From Thermodesulfovibrio sp. (GTDB lineage: Bacteria > Nitrospirota > Thermodesulfovibrionia > Thermodesulfovibrionales > UBA6898): 32,850 nucleotides of DNA. This document shows positions 20,878 to 32,041 of this stretch, in pieces. Below the pieces are notes generated by a model that was not told where the DNA came from, did no database searches, and saw nothing but the letters and a program-made list of their open reading frames with translations. Location of the stretch: assembly GCA_013824615.1 (NCBI GenBank), contig PNOC01000040.1, forward strand, positions 1 through 32,850. Direction: 5' to 3'. How positions within the stretch are numbered: position 1 is the first letter of the stretch; each line of letters opens with the position of its first letter. The position numbers were made by a program, and so were the translations under genes.

Positions 20878-23250
20878 TTATCGTTTCGTTCTGGCGAGGT
20901 GTTTCCTTAGTTTTTCAGCAGTTTCCTCTGCCTTAGCAGCACGGCTGTCAGTTTTTGCGGCGATTGACAGGAAGTCTTCAAGAGCGGTCAGTGCCTCCTG
21001 GTGCATTTTATTTTTCAGGTAAGCGAGGCCAAGATTATAGTAGGGGTCGGCATACATTGTATTGGCATCGATCGCCCCGCGGTAAGCCTGTATCGCCTCC
21101 TCGATAAGCCCTTTTTTCATGTAGACGCTGCCCAGATTGTTATAAACCTCGACATAGGCCGGGTTTATCTTCAGGGCCTCTTTATAAGCATTGATGGTTT
21201 CGTCAATATCATTGTTGGCGAGATAGGCGAGGCCGAGTTTATAGTAGGCCTCGGCAAAGAACGGATTTATCGTGAGGGCCTCCCGGTATGCTTTCATGGC
21301 CTGGCCCGTCAGGCCTTTTTTGTGCAGTGCGACGCCCAGGTTTACATAGGCCGCATCCAGTTCAGGATCCAGCCGGATGGCCTCTCTGTATTGCGTAATG
21401 GCCTCATCAAGCTGGCCATTTCTGTAGAGAGCAATCCCGAGGTTGAAATGGGCTGCGGTCATGTTCCGGTCAATTCTTACGGCTTCCCGATATTCCCTGA
21501 TGGCTTCTGCCAGACTGCCTTTCTGGGCCAGGGCATTGCCGAGATTGTAATGCGCGTCTGCATTACCGGGATTCAGTTTTATCCCCTGCCGGTAGTTCTT
21601 GATGCCCTCTTCAATGAGACCCAGGTTTGCCATGGACATGCCTTTGTTGATGAGTTCTGCCTCACTTAATTCTTCCAACTCCGGCGCTGTAGGCGGCAAA
21701 TCGCCCGTTTTTCGGGTTATTTCCTTTTTGAAGACGTCTTCAAGATCTTTTCTTAGTTCCCTGAAGTCGCTGTATCGTTTATCACGCCTTTTCTGCAGAC
21801 ACTTGTTGATGATATGCGCGATCCCTTCTCCCTGCTTCGGTATCCGGGGGACCGGGTATTCCTTATGCGCCATCCTCCAGGTTTCACCCTTCCGGGGCTT
21901 GAAAGGGAGGTCGCCGTTGCTTATCAGCTGGAACAGTATAATGCCGAAACTGTATATGTCGCTCTGGGTCTCTGCTACGCCGTAGAACTGTTCAGGGGCC
22001 ATCCAGGGCGGGGACCCCGCCACAACCCGGTTGTTATGCGTCGACAGAAAGGTCAGCCCCTCCTGATTTTTTTTCATCAGGTCCTTTATCTCCTCTGATT
22101 TCTCGGTCTTGTCCCATAGTCCGACAAGTCCGAAGTCAGTAATTTTAACATCTCCGTCTATCGTGATCATAATGTTGTCCGGCTTGATGTCCCGATGCGG
22201 GGTAACACCCCGGGAGCAGGCGTATTCCATGCCGTGACAGATCTGTATTGCCCAGGTCAAGGCTCTTTTCAGTGAAAAATTTCCCTTCAGAAAAGGCGTT
22301 AACGAGTTTCTGCCGCCCCCGTCGGGCACGATAAACTCGCAGGCAACGAATATTTTATGATCGAGTTCACGTACCCAGTGAGCCCTTACAATATAAGGGT
22401 GGTTTCCCAGGTGTATCCAGGCCAGGGCCTCTTTTTTGAAACTGTCGATGATCTTCTTTGAATCAAGGAACCTCTCCTGCAGGGTCTTCAATGCCAGTAT
22501 TCTGTTATGCTCAAAGTCAAAGCATTTATATACAATCCCCATAGCGCTTTTGCCTTCTCCGCCGAAGATCTCCTGAACCTGATATCTGCCAGCAATCAAC
22601 TCCCCGAAGTGGGCGGCTTTTCCCTGTGATACCGTAGCGGCTTTATTCGAGAAGTCCCTGGTCCTGCCGCTTTCGGACGCATGAGATCCAGACATCTGAG
22701 ACCCGGACTCCTGCTGCCGTGAGTCAGAGGATGCGTATGAATTCAGCAAAGACCTGCATTTGCCGCATCTGGGATTTTCGGGTAACCGGACCTTGAGAAT
22801 CCGGTTTTTTACCCCGCAGTTTCTGCAGCCGATAATGACGCTTTCCGGAGCTGCTGTCCGCTCTGCTCTGTCTGGTTCGGACACGGGTGTTTTGACTTCG
22901 GCGGTCGTCGTTGTCAGGTCGCTGTCTTGACTGTTGCTCATGGAAAGTTCTGCGGCGAAACCGGCATAGGTATCATCCTCATTGATAATTTCAATGCCTA
23001 TGCCGTTATCGGGAGAAGATGCCGGGGTGGGGGTCACCCACCTGATTATACCCGTCAGGCTGGAGGAGCGGTGTTCAGGAAGCTGCAGGGTTATATGGAC
23101 GATAGTGTCCGGCGCAAAGGATCCTTTTGTCTTTATGAAGCAGCCTTCCCTGGAGAAATTGCCTGAAATGCCCCGATATTGTTCCCCCTGGTAGGAAATA
23201 TCCAGCTCAAGGCGCTTAGGGAATCTGTCATGTTTTCTTCGCGATCTCAT
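20878..23250 (-). CDS. PilZ - zinc ribbon - Ser/Thr protein kinase - TPR fusion protein
   Basis: 790 residues with four modules. (1) PilZ domain, about 5-103: an RxxxR-type basic motif (RRKHDRF, from R4) and NFSREG (31-36) fit the two c-di-GMP contacts. (2) Zinc ribbon with CRNC and CGKC (C142, C145, C162, C165). (3) Complete Hanks-type kinase, about 221-507: glycine loop GGEGKSAMG, K255 in ALKTL, HRDIKPDN (352-359), DFG (372-374), MAPE (417-420), SDIYSFG. All catalytic residues are present, so it should be active. (4) At least seven TPR repeats, about 530-770, probably a partner-docking surface. No transmembrane segment is visible, so it is cytosolic. It is the last gene of a methyltransferase-PP2C-kinase operon, 18 bases after the phosphatase. 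Control by c-di-GMP is inference from the PilZ motifs. Confidence 0.92.
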   Translation of the reverse strand: MRSRRKHDRFPKRLELDISYQGEQYRGISGNFSREGCFIKTKGSFAPDTIVHITLQLPEHRSSSLTGIIRWVTPTPASSPDNGIGIEIINEDDTYAGFAAELSMSNSQDSDLTTTTAEVKTPVSEPDRAERTAAPESVIIGCRNCGVKNRILKVRLPENPRCGKCRSLLNSYASSDSRQQESGSQMSGSHASESGRTRDFSNKAATVSQGKAAHFGELIAGRYQVQEIFGGEGKSAMGIVYKCFDFEHNRILALKTLQERFLDSKKIIDSFKKEALAWIHLGNHPYIVRAHWVRELDHKIFVACEFIVPDGGGRNSLTPFLKGNFSLKRALTWAIQICHGMEYACSRGVTPHRDIKPDNIMITIDGDVKITDFGLVGLWDKTEKSEEIKDLMKKNQEGLTFLSTHNNRVVAGSPPWMAPEQFYGVAETQSDIYSFGIILFQLISNGDLPFKPRKGETWRMAHKEYPVPRIPKQGEGIAHIINKCLQKRRDKRYSDFRELRKDLEDVFKKEITRKTGDLPPTAPELEELSEAELINKGMSMANLGLIEEGIKNYRQGIKLNPGNADAHYNLGNALAQKGSLAEAIREYREAVRIDRNMTAAHFNLGIALYRNGQLDEAITQYREAIRLDPELDAAYVNLGVALHKKGLTGQAMKAYREALTINPFFAEAYYKLGLAYLANNDIDETINAYKEALKINPAYVEVYNNLGSVYMKKGLIEEAIQAYRGAIDANTMYADPYYNLGLAYLKNKMHQEALTALEDFLSIAAKTDSRAAKAEETAEKLRKHLARTKR

Positions 23251-23268: not shown

Positions 23269-23988
23269 CTAACGCCCGATGGCAATAACAGAGATATTGT
23301 CCTTCCCGCCTCTGCTGTTGGCATTGTTTGCCAGCGTTTCAACCATGGTCCCGAGCGCATGCCGGTGACTGCTGATAACCTGTTGAATTTCCTCATCCGT
23401 CAGCATGTCCGTCAGCCCGTCTGAGCAGACCAGCAGTATATCGCCTTCCGCCAGTTCTATCTGTTTTTTGTCAGGGACCGGATGGCTGTTTGTTCCCACA
23501 GACTGTGTGAGGACATGCCAGAGGCGGGGCGGTACTTTATCGTTCTCCATCTGACCGCTTTCAACATAGGCATCGCCGACTGTATGGTCCCGGGTAATGC
23601 GCTCCAGCATATCACGAAACAGATAGACCCTGCTATCCCCTGCATGACAGAGATATGCCTGCCTGCCCCGAATATAAAGTTCTACAAGTGTTGTTCCCAT
23701 GCCGTGAAGCTCCGGATCACTCGCGGCCATTATCTTTATCGAACGGTGCGCACAGCAGAGGGCCTCTTCCATGACATCAAGGACCGAAGGACCGTCTCCG
23801 GCCCCGGGTATCTCCTTCAGAAGAAAGGCATATGCCTCGTTGACCGCCAGTTCGCTGGCGATCTCGCCTGCGTTATGGCCGCCCAGGCCGTCAGCCAGGA
23901 GAAAGATGCCGAGCTTTTCATCGATCAGCAGTCTATCCTCATTTGTCGACCTCACGTTTCCTATATCGGTCTTCCAGGCAACGGTCAT
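23269..23988 (-). CDS. PP2C-family Ser/Thr protein phosphatase (PrpC/Stp-like)
   Basis: 239 residues, a stand-alone bacterial PPM phosphatase of typical length. Metal-binding motifs are intact: NED (16-18), ADGLGGHNAGE (32-42), HAGDSRVYLFR, CSDGLTDMLTDEEI and GGKDNISVIAI (D230, N231). It removes phosphate from Ser/Thr of proteins and by position is the natural antagonist of the kinase encoded directly downstream. Its ATG overlaps the stop of the upstream methyltransferase gene by four bases (ATGA), a sign of translational coupling. No signal peptide or extra domain is present. Confidence 0.95.
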   Translation of the reverse strand: MTVAWKTDIGNVRSTNEDRLLIDEKLGIFLLADGLGGHNAGEIASELAVNEAYAFLLKEIPGAGDGPSVLDVMEEALCCAHRSIKIMAASDPELHGMGTTLVELYIRGRQAYLCHAGDSRVYLFRDMLERITRDHTVGDAYVESGQMENDKVPPRLWHVLTQSVGTNSHPVPDKKQIELAEGDILLVCSDGLTDMLTDEEIQQVISSHRHALGTMVETLANNANSRGGKDNISVIAIGR

Positions 23989-24632
23989 TTCAGGTTCTCA
24001 TTGCTCCAGCCGCCAGGAAAGGGATTGCTCTGCTGATAGGCGAAAAGGGTAAAGTCATGGCAGAGCCTATCCTGACGAAGAGAGACGAAGGGTGTGAGTT
24101 CCTTAAGCGCAAAACCCAGGATTTCTTCCGGTGCAGTATAGTGCAGTTCATGGCTCTTGTGGTGATTATGCACTGAAAGGCCGTTATAGGCCAGACCGAT
24201 GCGGCAGTGGCTGAAGAGTTTTTTCAGCGTTGTCCGTATGACTTCGTCCAGTCCCTGAATTTTCAGGTTAAAGACGCCGCAAAGAAATATATAATCGAAC
24301 ACATTGGTCAGCGTGTCAGTCGTGATATCAAAAACAGAGAAGGGAACGCCGGGATATTTTTGTTTTGCCAGATCGATCAGTCCCGGATTGATATCAACTC
24401 CTGTATAAGATACCGTGATATTGTTCTGCTGCAGAAAACCGCAGAGATCTCCCTTGCCGCAGCCGAAGTCAAGGACGCTTGCCCCTTCAAGAGACGGGGC
24501 TATATCGAGCAGACATTTGTAGTGTATGATCTGTCCCGGTACGGTCCAGCGTACCGCCTCAGGCCGGTCCCCGTGCAGCCGCAGCGACGCATCGAAAAAA
24601 GAGATAACATATTCCTTCGAGAGATCCTCCAC
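23985..24632 (-). CDS. Class I SAM-dependent methyltransferase
   Basis: About 215 residues with a Rossmann methyltransferase core: motif I VLDFGCGKGD (53-62), the acidic residue ending strand beta-2 in YTGVDINPG (D80), and FDYIFLCGVFNL as motif IV. The substrate is not evident; small molecule, lipid or protein are all possible. The start is taken as GTG 24632. An upstream ATG on the same strand is out of frame, and there is no strong ribosome site, so the N terminus is uncertain by a few residues. It is the first gene of the kinase/phosphatase operon and divergent from glyQ across 83 bases. Confidence 0.8.
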   Translation of the reverse strand: MEDLSKEYVISFFDASLRLHGDRPEAVRWTVPGQIIHYKCLLDIAPSLEGASVLDFGCGKGDLCGFLQQNNITVSYTGVDINPGLIDLAKQKYPGVPFSVFDITTDTLTNVFDYIFLCGVFNLKIQGLDEVIRTTLKKLFSHCRIGLAYNGLSVHNHHKSHELHYTAPEEILGFALKELTPFVSLRQDRLCHDFTLFAYQQSNPFPGGWSNENLK

Positions 24633-29559: not shown

Positions 29560-30627
29560 TCACAGCCACTTCTTTTTTCTGAAGAAAAGCAGCATCCCTG
29601 CGCTGATCGAGATCATGACCAGCCAGAGCAGAGGGTAGGCCCAGGGCTTGTCGAGTTCGGGCATATGTTTGAAGTTCATGCCGTAGACGCCGACCAAAAA
29701 GGTGAGCGGCATGAATATCGTGGCGATGATCGTCAGGACCTTCATGACGGCATTCATCCTGTTGCTCATGCTCGACAGATAGATGTCGATCATTCCCGAT
29801 GCCATGTCCCGGAAGGTCTCGACGGTCTCTATAATCTCGATCGTGTGGTCATACACATCCCTGAGATATACCCGTGTTCCCTCCTGTATCAGGGGAGATT
29901 CGCCGCGCTGAAGCCCGCTGATAACCTCGCGCAGCGGCCAGACAGCCTTGCGCAGATAGATCAGTTCACGTTTGAGAAAGTGGATTTCGGTCAGTGTTTT
30001 GTCAGCAGGGTTGGTGACCAGCCGGTCTTCCAGTGTTTCGATTTCTTCCCCCAGCTTCTCCAGGATACTGAAGTAGTTGTCGACCACAGCATCAATGAGA
30101 GAATAGAGAAGGTAGTCAGCCCCCATCTTTCTGATCCGGCCCTTGTCGTTGCGGAGGCGGTCCCTGACCGCAGTGAAGACATCGCCCTCAATACCCTCCT
30201 GAAAAGAGATGATAAAGTTTGCGCCGGCTATCAGGCTAATCTGTTCGCTGACAACAGAGCCTCCGTCTGTGCCCGGATACAGCATCTTCAGGACAACATA
30301 GAGATATTCGTTATAGTCTTCCATCTTTGGCCGCTGACCGGTATTGAGTATATCTTCAAGCACCAGAGGATGAAACCCGTAGCAGTCGCCGAGCTTCTGT
30401 ATTATATCCGGCTGGCTGAGCCCGTCGATATTGATCCAGGTGACCGATGGTTTGTCCCTGAAGAGGAAGCACTCATCGATAACACTGATCTGCTTCTCCT
30501 GAATACTTGCGCCATCGTAGTCCATGACTGTGATCAGGATCTGCCGGCCTGGCGTATTGCCAAGGTGAACGAGTGAGCCGGGGGGAAGGCCTGCCTTTGC
30601 CGAGCGTTTATGGGTATGTCGTGTCAT
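29560..30627 (-). CDS. corA: CorA-type magnesium/cobalt transporter
   Basis: 355 residues. The long cytosolic N-terminal domain (PSVTWINIDGLSQ, EDILNTGQRPKMEDY) and coiled central helices (LGEEIETLEDRL) lead to two C-terminal transmembrane helices. The hallmark YGMNF (GMN at 316-318) lies after FMPLTFLVGVYG, and the protein ends in a basic tail, RKKKWL. CorA forms a pentameric channel for Mg2+ uptake gated by intracellular Mg2+. No ribosome-binding site is clear before the ATG at 30627. It is the first gene of the corA-dedA-channel group and divergent from thrC. Confidence 0.95.
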   Translation of the reverse strand: MTRHTHKRSAKAGLPPGSLVHLGNTPGRQILITVMDYDGASIQEKQISVIDECFLFRDKPSVTWINIDGLSQPDIIQKLGDCYGFHPLVLEDILNTGQRPKMEDYNEYLYVVLKMLYPGTDGGSVVSEQISLIAGANFIISFQEGIEGDVFTAVRDRLRNDKGRIRKMGADYLLYSLIDAVVDNYFSILEKLGEEIETLEDRLVTNPADKTLTEIHFLKRELIYLRKAVWPLREVISGLQRGESPLIQEGTRVYLRDVYDHTIEIIETVETFRDMASGMIDIYLSSMSNRMNAVMKVLTIIATIFMPLTFLVGVYGMNFKHMPELDKPWAYPLLWLVMISISAGMLLFFRKKKWL

Positions 30628-30755
30628 GATGGAATATCCGGGTCCATGTCAGGTGAGTAATGCTATCAGACAGGATTTATCGTTGTCAAATCGGGTTGTT
30701 CATATGTATCCGGGCAGGAAAGCGTTTTCTAAATATCTTTTAATTAATGGGTGCT

Positions 30756-30783
30756 TTGAAGTAAAATACACGATAAATATAGT
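30756..30783 (+). promoter_or_regulatory. Possible promoter upstream of thrC
   Basis: TTGAAG (30756-30761) and TATAGT (30778-30783) are 16 bases apart in an AT-rich part of the 172 bp corA-thrC gap. Transcription would begin at the ribosome site itself, so the element may be shifted or unrelated. Confidence 0.25.
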
Positions 30784-30799
30784 AAATGAGGTGCGAGGC

Positions 30800-32041
30800 A
30801 TGGGACACATAAAAGGTCTGAAGTGCAGGGAATGCAGCAGGGAATATCCGATTGAGCCCATATATGTCTGTGAGTTCTGTTTTGGGCCGCTTGAGGTGGC
30901 CTATGATTATACGAGCATTGCCACGGAGATCAGCAGGAAGAAGATCGAAAAGAGGGAGAAGAACCTCTGGAGATACCGCGAACTGCTGCCTATTGATGGA
31001 GACCCGCAGGTAGGACTCGATTCGGGGTTTACACCTCTTATGAAGGCGAACAATCTGGCGAAGGTTCTGGGTATCGATGAACTTTATATAAAGGATGATA
31101 CGGTGGTGCATCCGACGCTCTCGTTCAAGGACAGGGTGGTTGCTATTGCCCTGACCAAGGCGAAAGAGTTCGGGTTTGATACGGTTGCCTGTGCTTCTAC
31201 CGGCAACCTGGCTCATTCGGTCTCTGCCCATGGCGCCCGGGCAGGATTTAAGCGTTTTATCTTTATCCCGGCGACACTGGAGGCAAGCAAGATCGTTGCG
31301 TCGCTCGTCTATGAACCGAACCTTGTCGCGGTCGACGGCAATTACGATGATGTCAACCGGCTCTGCAGCGAGATTGCCAACAAATATAAATGGGCCTTTG
31401 TGAATATCAATATCCGGCCGTTTTATGCCGAGGGTTCGAAAACCATAGGGTTCGAGATCATCGAGCAGTTGGGCTGGAAAGTGCCGGACAATATTGTTGT
31501 ACCCTGTGCCAGCGGGTCCCTGCTTACTAAGGTCTGGAAGAGCTTCAAGGAGTTTAAGGAAGTCGGCATTATTAAAGAGGTCGGAACAAAAGTCTACGCA
31601 GCACAGGCCACCGGGTGTTCACCCATTGCGACGGCCATCAAACAGGGCACTGACGTTATAAGGCCGGTAAAGCCGAATACGATTGCAAAGTCTCTGGCAA
31701 TCGGAAATCCTGCTGACGGGTTTTATGCCTCGCAGGTAGTCAAAGAGACCGGAGGTTATGCAGAGGACGTGAGTGATCAGGAGATCATTGACGCCATGAA
31801 GCTCCTGGCAAGGACAGAGGGGGTTTTTGCAGAGACTGCCGGAGGAGTGACCCTCGCAGCAGCCAAGAAGATGATAGAGAGCGGTAAGATCAAAAGAGAA
31901 GGGGTAACGGTCATCTGCATTACCGGCAACGGACTGAAGACTCAGGAAGCCCTGCAGGGCCATACCACCTCGCCGCATTACATAAAGCCGAGCCTGGCCG
32001 CGTTTGAAGAGGTGCTCGTGAATATTAATAAGGGCGCGTAA
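30800..32041 (+). CDS. thrC: Threonine synthase (zinc-ribbon form)
   Basis: 413 residues. PLP enzyme converting O-phosphohomoserine to threonine. It begins with a zinc-ribbon-like head (C9, C12, C24, C27: LKCRECSREY ... VCEFCFGPLEV). The fold-type-II PLP lysine is K110 in LSFKDR. The substrate/cofactor loop is CASTGNLAHSVSAHG, followed by VVPCASGSLLTK and AETAGGVTLAAAKK. The ATG at 30800 was chosen because homology starts at the zinc head and GAGGTG lies upstream. An open frame to 30626 is noncoding leader. A cluster of sulfur-carrier and phosphoglycerate-mutase-like genes follows directly. Confidence 0.95.
   Translation: MGHIKGLKCRECSREYPIEPIYVCEFCFGPLEVAYDYTSIATEISRKKIEKREKNLWRYRELLPIDGDPQVGLDSGFTPLMKANNLAKVLGIDELYIKDDTVVHPTLSFKDRVVAIALTKAKEFGFDTVACASTGNLAHSVSAHGARAGFKRFIFIPATLEASKIVASLVYEPNLVAVDGNYDDVNRLCSEIANKYKWAFVNINIRPFYAEGSKTIGFEIIEQLGWKVPDNIVVPCASGSLLTKVWKSFKEFKEVGIIKEVGTKVYAAQATGCSPIATAIKQGTDVIRPVKPNTIAKSLAIGNPADGFYASQVVKETGGYAEDVSDQEIIDAMKLLARTEGVFAETAGGVTLAAAKKMIESGKIKREGVTVICITGNGLKTQEALQGHTTSPHYIKPSLAAFEEVLVNINKGA

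Follow-up and report, generated by a model that had tools for sequence, protein, structure and literature searches.

Which signal controls the Ser/Thr kinase encoded at positions 20878 to 23250 of the window (the whole stretch of 32,850 nucleotides that was analysed), and could cyclic di-GMP (c-di-GMP) act on this kinase directly? The open reading frame, on the minus strand, starts with ATG, contains no internal stop codon and encodes 790 amino acids. The original prediction described a single polypeptide composed of a PilZ domain with both c-di-GMP-type motifs, a four-cysteine zinc ribbon, a catalytically intact Hanks kinase domain, no active-site residue being missing, and a TPR tail. All these elements were recovered from the reading frame and from the Pfam matches, and are located as follows:

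20878..23250, minus strand: gene of the PilZ-zinc ribbon-kinase-TPR protein, 790 aa
22918..23250, minus strand: PilZ domain, residues 1-111
23224..23238, minus strand: RxxxR motif, R5 to R9
23143..23160, minus strand: (D/N)xSxxG motif, N31 to G36
22744..22842, minus strand: zinc ribbon with four cysteines, probably of thioredoxin-2 type, residues 137-169
22621..22740, minus strand: Ser/Gln-rich linker, predicted disordered (pLDDT <50), residues 171-210
21712..22605, minus strand: Hanks Ser/Thr kinase domain, residues 216-513
20956..21669, minus strand: TPR array, residues ~528-765 (model pLDDT mostly >90)

The same domain order is found in two other MAGs of the genus (G002 and G004, 57% identity). 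This recurrence shows that the four-part protein did not arise from a fortuitous junction or a faulty assembly, and an assembly chimera is ruled out. In the full-length predicted model the PilZ block has a pLDDT of 33-60 and the arrangement of the PilZ domain relative to the kinase is not fixed.

The PilZ domain is detected by PF07238 with 46.3 bits over residues 4-93 (cut-off 22.5) and contains the two motifs R5-K-H-D-R9 and N31-F-S33-R-E-G36. The alignment of 28 PilZ sequences was composed of 3 kinase-borne modules and 25 separate PilZ-ribbon proteins; the residues R5, R9, S33 and G36 are invariant in all of them, and position 31 is either Asp or Asn. Orthologues without the basic motif, which were named at the outset as evidence against the c-di-GMP link, were observed neither among the kinases (3/3 keep the motif) nor among the separate proteins (25/25). 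Modelled with AlphaFold (mean pLDDT 82.9), residues 1-175 match MotI/DgrA (5vx6; Foldseek E 1.5e-5; VIA Z 14.0, rmsd 3.0, 107 residues) and also the c-di-GMP-bound structures of MapZ, Alg44, PA0012 and MrkH. The most diverged kinase copy, from G004, has changed 18 of the 35 strongly conserved PilZ positions, including the allowed D-to-N replacement at position 31, and has kept R5, R9, S33 and G36; in a simple draw, the chance that these four invariant positions would stay unchanged is about 4-5%. This retention points, though modestly, to selection for ligand binding; the three copies are not independent. The genome contains 19 GGDEF matches above cut-off and 14 PilZ matches, and c-di-GMP signalling is therefore very likely present. 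Altogether, we consider it likely that the PilZ domain of the window protein binds c-di-GMP.

Another type of PilZ fusion was detected in a different Nitrospirota genome, where a protein (L100, 1039-1932) comprises a PilZ domain followed by an apparent class III nucleotide cyclase with the motif DIRGFT. Its sequence suggests a cross-talk from c-di-GMP to a cyclic nucleotide.

The ribbon is situated between the PilZ and kinase domains and contains the cysteines C142-x2-C145 and C162-x2-C165, all four invariant in the 28 aligned proteins. A probable type can now be given for it. Scanned alone, the window ribbon scores 22.7 bits against PF21352 (thioredoxin 2, N-terminal), below the cut-off of 27.1, whereas relatives lie above it (41.2 and 36.1 bits for pieces of two relatives, 31.8-39.8 bits for four whole relatives). 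The profile of the module also matches the solved TrxC chains 7ysi, 2ppt and 3p2a. Judged by sequence, the ribbon is thus probably of the thioredoxin-2 (TrxC) type, and it would be expected to bind zinc and to sense the redox state. In thioredoxin 2 the N-terminal Cys4 ribbon is followed by a thioredoxin domain, whereas the window protein has a kinase at this place and no thioredoxin domain among the Pfam matches listed. Elsewhere in the window, residues 66-90 of a PLP-dependent enzyme (30626-32041) match the phage NinF family (PF05810, 36.2 bits) and probably form a small zinc-binding segment.

The kinase domain matches PF00069 with 114.6 bits (residues 233-496). In agreement with the original prediction, the residues K255, E274, H352-R353-D354, K356, N359, D372-F373-G374, P419-E420, D431 and R492 are all present, and they are invariant in an alignment of 11 kinases. 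The Lys, Glu, HRD, DFG and APE elements of Hanks-type kinases are among them. The glycine loop GGEGKSAMG displays an extended form common to all six close relatives and to the L054 sequence. The linker between ribbon and kinase is poorly conserved in the alignment and flexible in the predicted model. Downstream of the kinase, Pfam detects six TPR repeats (residues ~530-765), which may recruit substrates.

The nearest solved sequences to the kinase domain are StkP, PknA and PknB. The window kinase shares with the PASTA kinases PknB and StkP the type of kinase domain and a PP2C neighbour, but no PASTA repeats were found among the Pfam matches listed for the window protein. A membership of the PASTA kinases (Stk1/PknB) was rejected, since the family model NF033483, which has a cut-off of 450 bits, scores 146.5 and on the kinase part only.

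Over the whole architecture, the closest solved chain is PknG (2pzi, 7mxb), a kinase of mycobacteria and corynebacteria in which a Cys4 metal domain (in mycobacteria), a kinase and a C-terminal TPR region follow in the same order. Foldseek aligned the full-length model with these two structures over 655-711 columns, with a low TM-score because the domain arrangement of the model is unsettled. PknG has a rubredoxin-like domain and no PilZ domain, whereas the window protein has a TrxC-type ribbon and a PilZ domain; some true PknGs also lack the rubredoxin-type domain (PMC8546545). PknG is absent from the best 60 sequence matches to the window kinase domain, and no GlnH/GlnX-type gene is annotated next to the window kinase. 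Assignment to PknG was rejected, since the kinase sequence is nearest to StkP, PknA and PknB and the metal domain is not of the rubredoxin type. In PknG, the rubredoxin domain restrains catalysis and the TPRs couple the signal to the substrate (PMC8546545). By analogy, the ribbon and the PilZ domain of the window protein may gate the kinase while the TPRs recruit, and the protein is best read as a soluble kinase of PknG-like construction to which c-di-GMP would have been added as a signal.

The search for the same domain order in other genomes, proposed with the original prediction, covered 176 genomes of the order and recovered the full PilZ-ribbon-kinase in three of the five genomes of one genus, that of the window included; in the two further genomes of the genus any close match is absent. 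Two genomes of a sister genus (G008 and G020) encode a ribbon-kinase-TPR protein without PilZ, and G012 encodes the kinase and TPRs alone, with neither PilZ nor ribbon. Relatives of 58-62% overall identity thus have no PilZ domain at all. A coordinate or frame error hiding a PilZ domain was ruled out in G008 and G020, where the kinase frame opens immediately past the PP2C stop codon and thus leaves no room for such a domain. More distant relatives have other N-terminal parts or none. The kinase-TPR core is therefore stable, with an N-terminus that appears as an interchangeable input part; the PilZ domain is dispensable to the kinase family, which as a whole cannot depend on c-di-GMP. Support in the kinase tree is too low within the six close relatives for PilZ gain and PilZ loss to be put in order.

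This distribution bears on a reading in which the ribbon is the main sensor: its TrxC-type site would lose zinc on oxidation and regulate the kinase as the rubredoxin domain regulates PknG (PMC8546545), the PilZ domain being a modulator. Its retention in the two PilZ-less relatives and the invariance of its four cysteines in the 28 proteins are consistent with such a role, but G012 lacks the ribbon as well and the window copy remains under the Pfam cut-off. We regard this reading as improbable as the main account, although it is compatible with the mechanism that we propose below.

Other long PilZ proteins were considered as further kinases and rejected, the seven loci inspected in the phylum and those inspected in this genome being without a kinase domain; a 601-aa PilZ protein in L030 was read in part, and PF00069 detects no other kinase above cut-off in this genome. 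In one protein (L096, 474-2150) a pair of PilZ-like stretches precedes a J-domain-like segment, and the tail resembles TPRs. In a plasmid search, not one of the 447 records obtained reached 80% coverage of the query, and the eight matches listed are 24-31% identical.

The N-terminal module also exists by itself, as a protein of ~170 aa that is widespread in the order. At E 1e-8, 99 of the 396 Nitrospirota genomes sampled match the PilZ-ribbon module, many of them by the PilZ domain alone. The separate protein has both domains and the motifs as in the kinase (~31-40% identity) and lacks both kinase and TPR. Its gene in this genome lies on contig C5 (L032, 5440-5979), directly downstream of the adenylosuccinate synthetase gene; its gene neighbours belong to serine and purine biosynthesis and are uninformative on the function of the module. 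In the phylogenetic tree, the three modules carried by kinases group in a single clade, apart from the 25 separate ones (support 100/99). Since the N-terminal module is that of the separate family, the kinase would have gained it by fusion, and the simplest reading of the sequences is that this fusion occurred inside this lineage.

The kinase-borne PilZ domains have longer branches than the separate ones, which fits an altered or relaxed function. They could then have ceased to sense c-di-GMP and serve as a structural or interaction module, the kinase answering to TPR partners or to the ribbon. The close relatives without PilZ agree with this proposal, and precedents exist in Myxococcus xanthus. 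PlpA shows that the motifs do not by themselves guarantee c-di-GMP binding (PMC8316039), and the Ser/Thr kinase Pkn1 (PMC8316039, PMC8844925) has a C-terminal PilZ domain in which the c-di-GMP motifs are missing and which is predicted not to bind. The three diverged kinases of the genus, however, keep all the ligand motif residues, and we consider a non-sensing PilZ domain rather unlikely.

Pkn1 also qualifies the statement that PilZ-kinase fusions are uncommon. It is a precedent that likewise unites a Ser/Thr kinase and a PilZ domain in a single polypeptide (PMC8316039). Its PilZ domain is at the opposite end and without ligand motifs, and in the accessible parts of these papers neither ribbon nor TPR is described for Pkn1. 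Apart from Pkn1, our search of the open literature found no c-di-GMP-responsive PilZ Ser/Thr kinase. A PilZ-kinase protein as such is known; what is new here is the identity of the module with a separate protein, the narrow distribution of the fusion and the conserved pairing with a PP2C gene.

Two genes are located upstream of the kinase:

23269..23988, minus strand: gene of a PP2C-type Ser/Thr phosphatase of 239 aa (PF00481, 46.4 bits), separated from the kinase gene by 18 nt
23985..24632, minus strand: class-I SAM methyltransferase gene (PF08242, 41.9 bits), overlapping the PP2C start by 4 nt

Against the Stp1 family NF033484, the PP2C scores 207.6 bits for a cut-off of 230. The methyltransferase gene presumably heads an operon with the PP2C and kinase genes; it was not found adjoining the PP2C in the relatives examined. 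The PP2C-kinase pairing is observed in 5/6 close relatives (G002, G004, G008 and G020 besides the window), and the genes around the pair differ between relatives while the pair stays. The kinase and a counteracting PP2C are probably co-transcribed. Promoter and terminator scans gave nothing that altered this picture. The original prediction mentioned neither the PP2C gene nor the separate PilZ-ribbon protein, nor that the nearest relatives beyond the genus lack PilZ.

The upstream neighbour of the kinase is the only PP2C that PF13672 detects in this genome, and the window kinase is the only Hanks-type kinase above the PF00069 cut-off. No FHA domains were found in this genome. The assembly comprises 96 contigs and is estimated 100% complete, so that an unseen copy of either gene is possible but unlikely. 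A second Hanks kinase was rejected, the sole other match, on contig C67, being below cut-off and without HRD and DFG. This match is a 441-aa protein (L063, 159-1484, minus strand) that begins with a hydrophobic stretch, contains tandem repeats and ends in a degenerate kinase-like region; from its sequence it is a probable membrane pseudokinase.

The occurrence of intact PilZ ligand residues in the only recognisable eukaryote-like Ser/Thr kinase of the genome means that c-di-GMP may directly control phosphorylation. In the mechanism that we propose, a soluble Hanks kinase of PknB/PknA type, whose TPRs form a scaffold at the C-terminus, would have taken up the N-terminal PilZ-zinc ribbon from the separate family. 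c-di-GMP would be bound through R5/R9 and N31/S33/G36 and the flexible N-terminus would become ordered; this ordering would pass through ribbon and linker and alter the access to the kinase or its choice of substrate. The TPRs would recruit substrates or partners, and the phosphorylation would be reversed by the PP2C. Taken as a whole, this explanation seems to us evenly poised between true and false.

The flexible, poorly conserved linker speaks against a rigid allosteric coupling and leads to a further alternative, in which the c-di-GMP-bound PilZ domain is a switch of localisation or dimerisation that brings a constitutively active kinase to a target such as a pole, a pilus or a flagellar machine, catalysis being unchanged. 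Protein-protein contact is the mode of action of known PilZ proteins, MapZ and MotI among them, and these two are also among the best fold matches. Nothing direct speaks against this alternative, but no obvious target is encoded beside the gene; we hold it to be rather unlikely.

The direct link between c-di-GMP and phosphorylation that had been predicted is thus upheld in part: the motifs, the PilZ fold and the GGDEF proteins support it, whereas the domain is absent in relatives of 58-62% identity and none of the computed results shows the ligand altering catalysis. Control of phosphorylation by the ligand has, in our opinion, an equal chance of being right or wrong. A bolder proposal, for which our expectation is low, is that the whole detectable Hanks-type system consists of one kinase and one PP2C, that the kinase jointly reads c-di-GMP and zinc or redox state, and that it would be the first known case of c-di-GMP acting as the direct switch of a Ser/Thr kinase, having arisen by fusion with a separate PilZ-ribbon protein.

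If c-di-GMP does control a Ser/Thr kinase directly, two signalling systems that are usually regarded separately would be connected. As this genome has a single detectable Hanks kinase and one PP2C, the output would be easy to trace. The natural series of N-terminal parts (PilZ and ribbon, ribbon only, neither) on related kinase cores offers a comparison of the contribution of each part.
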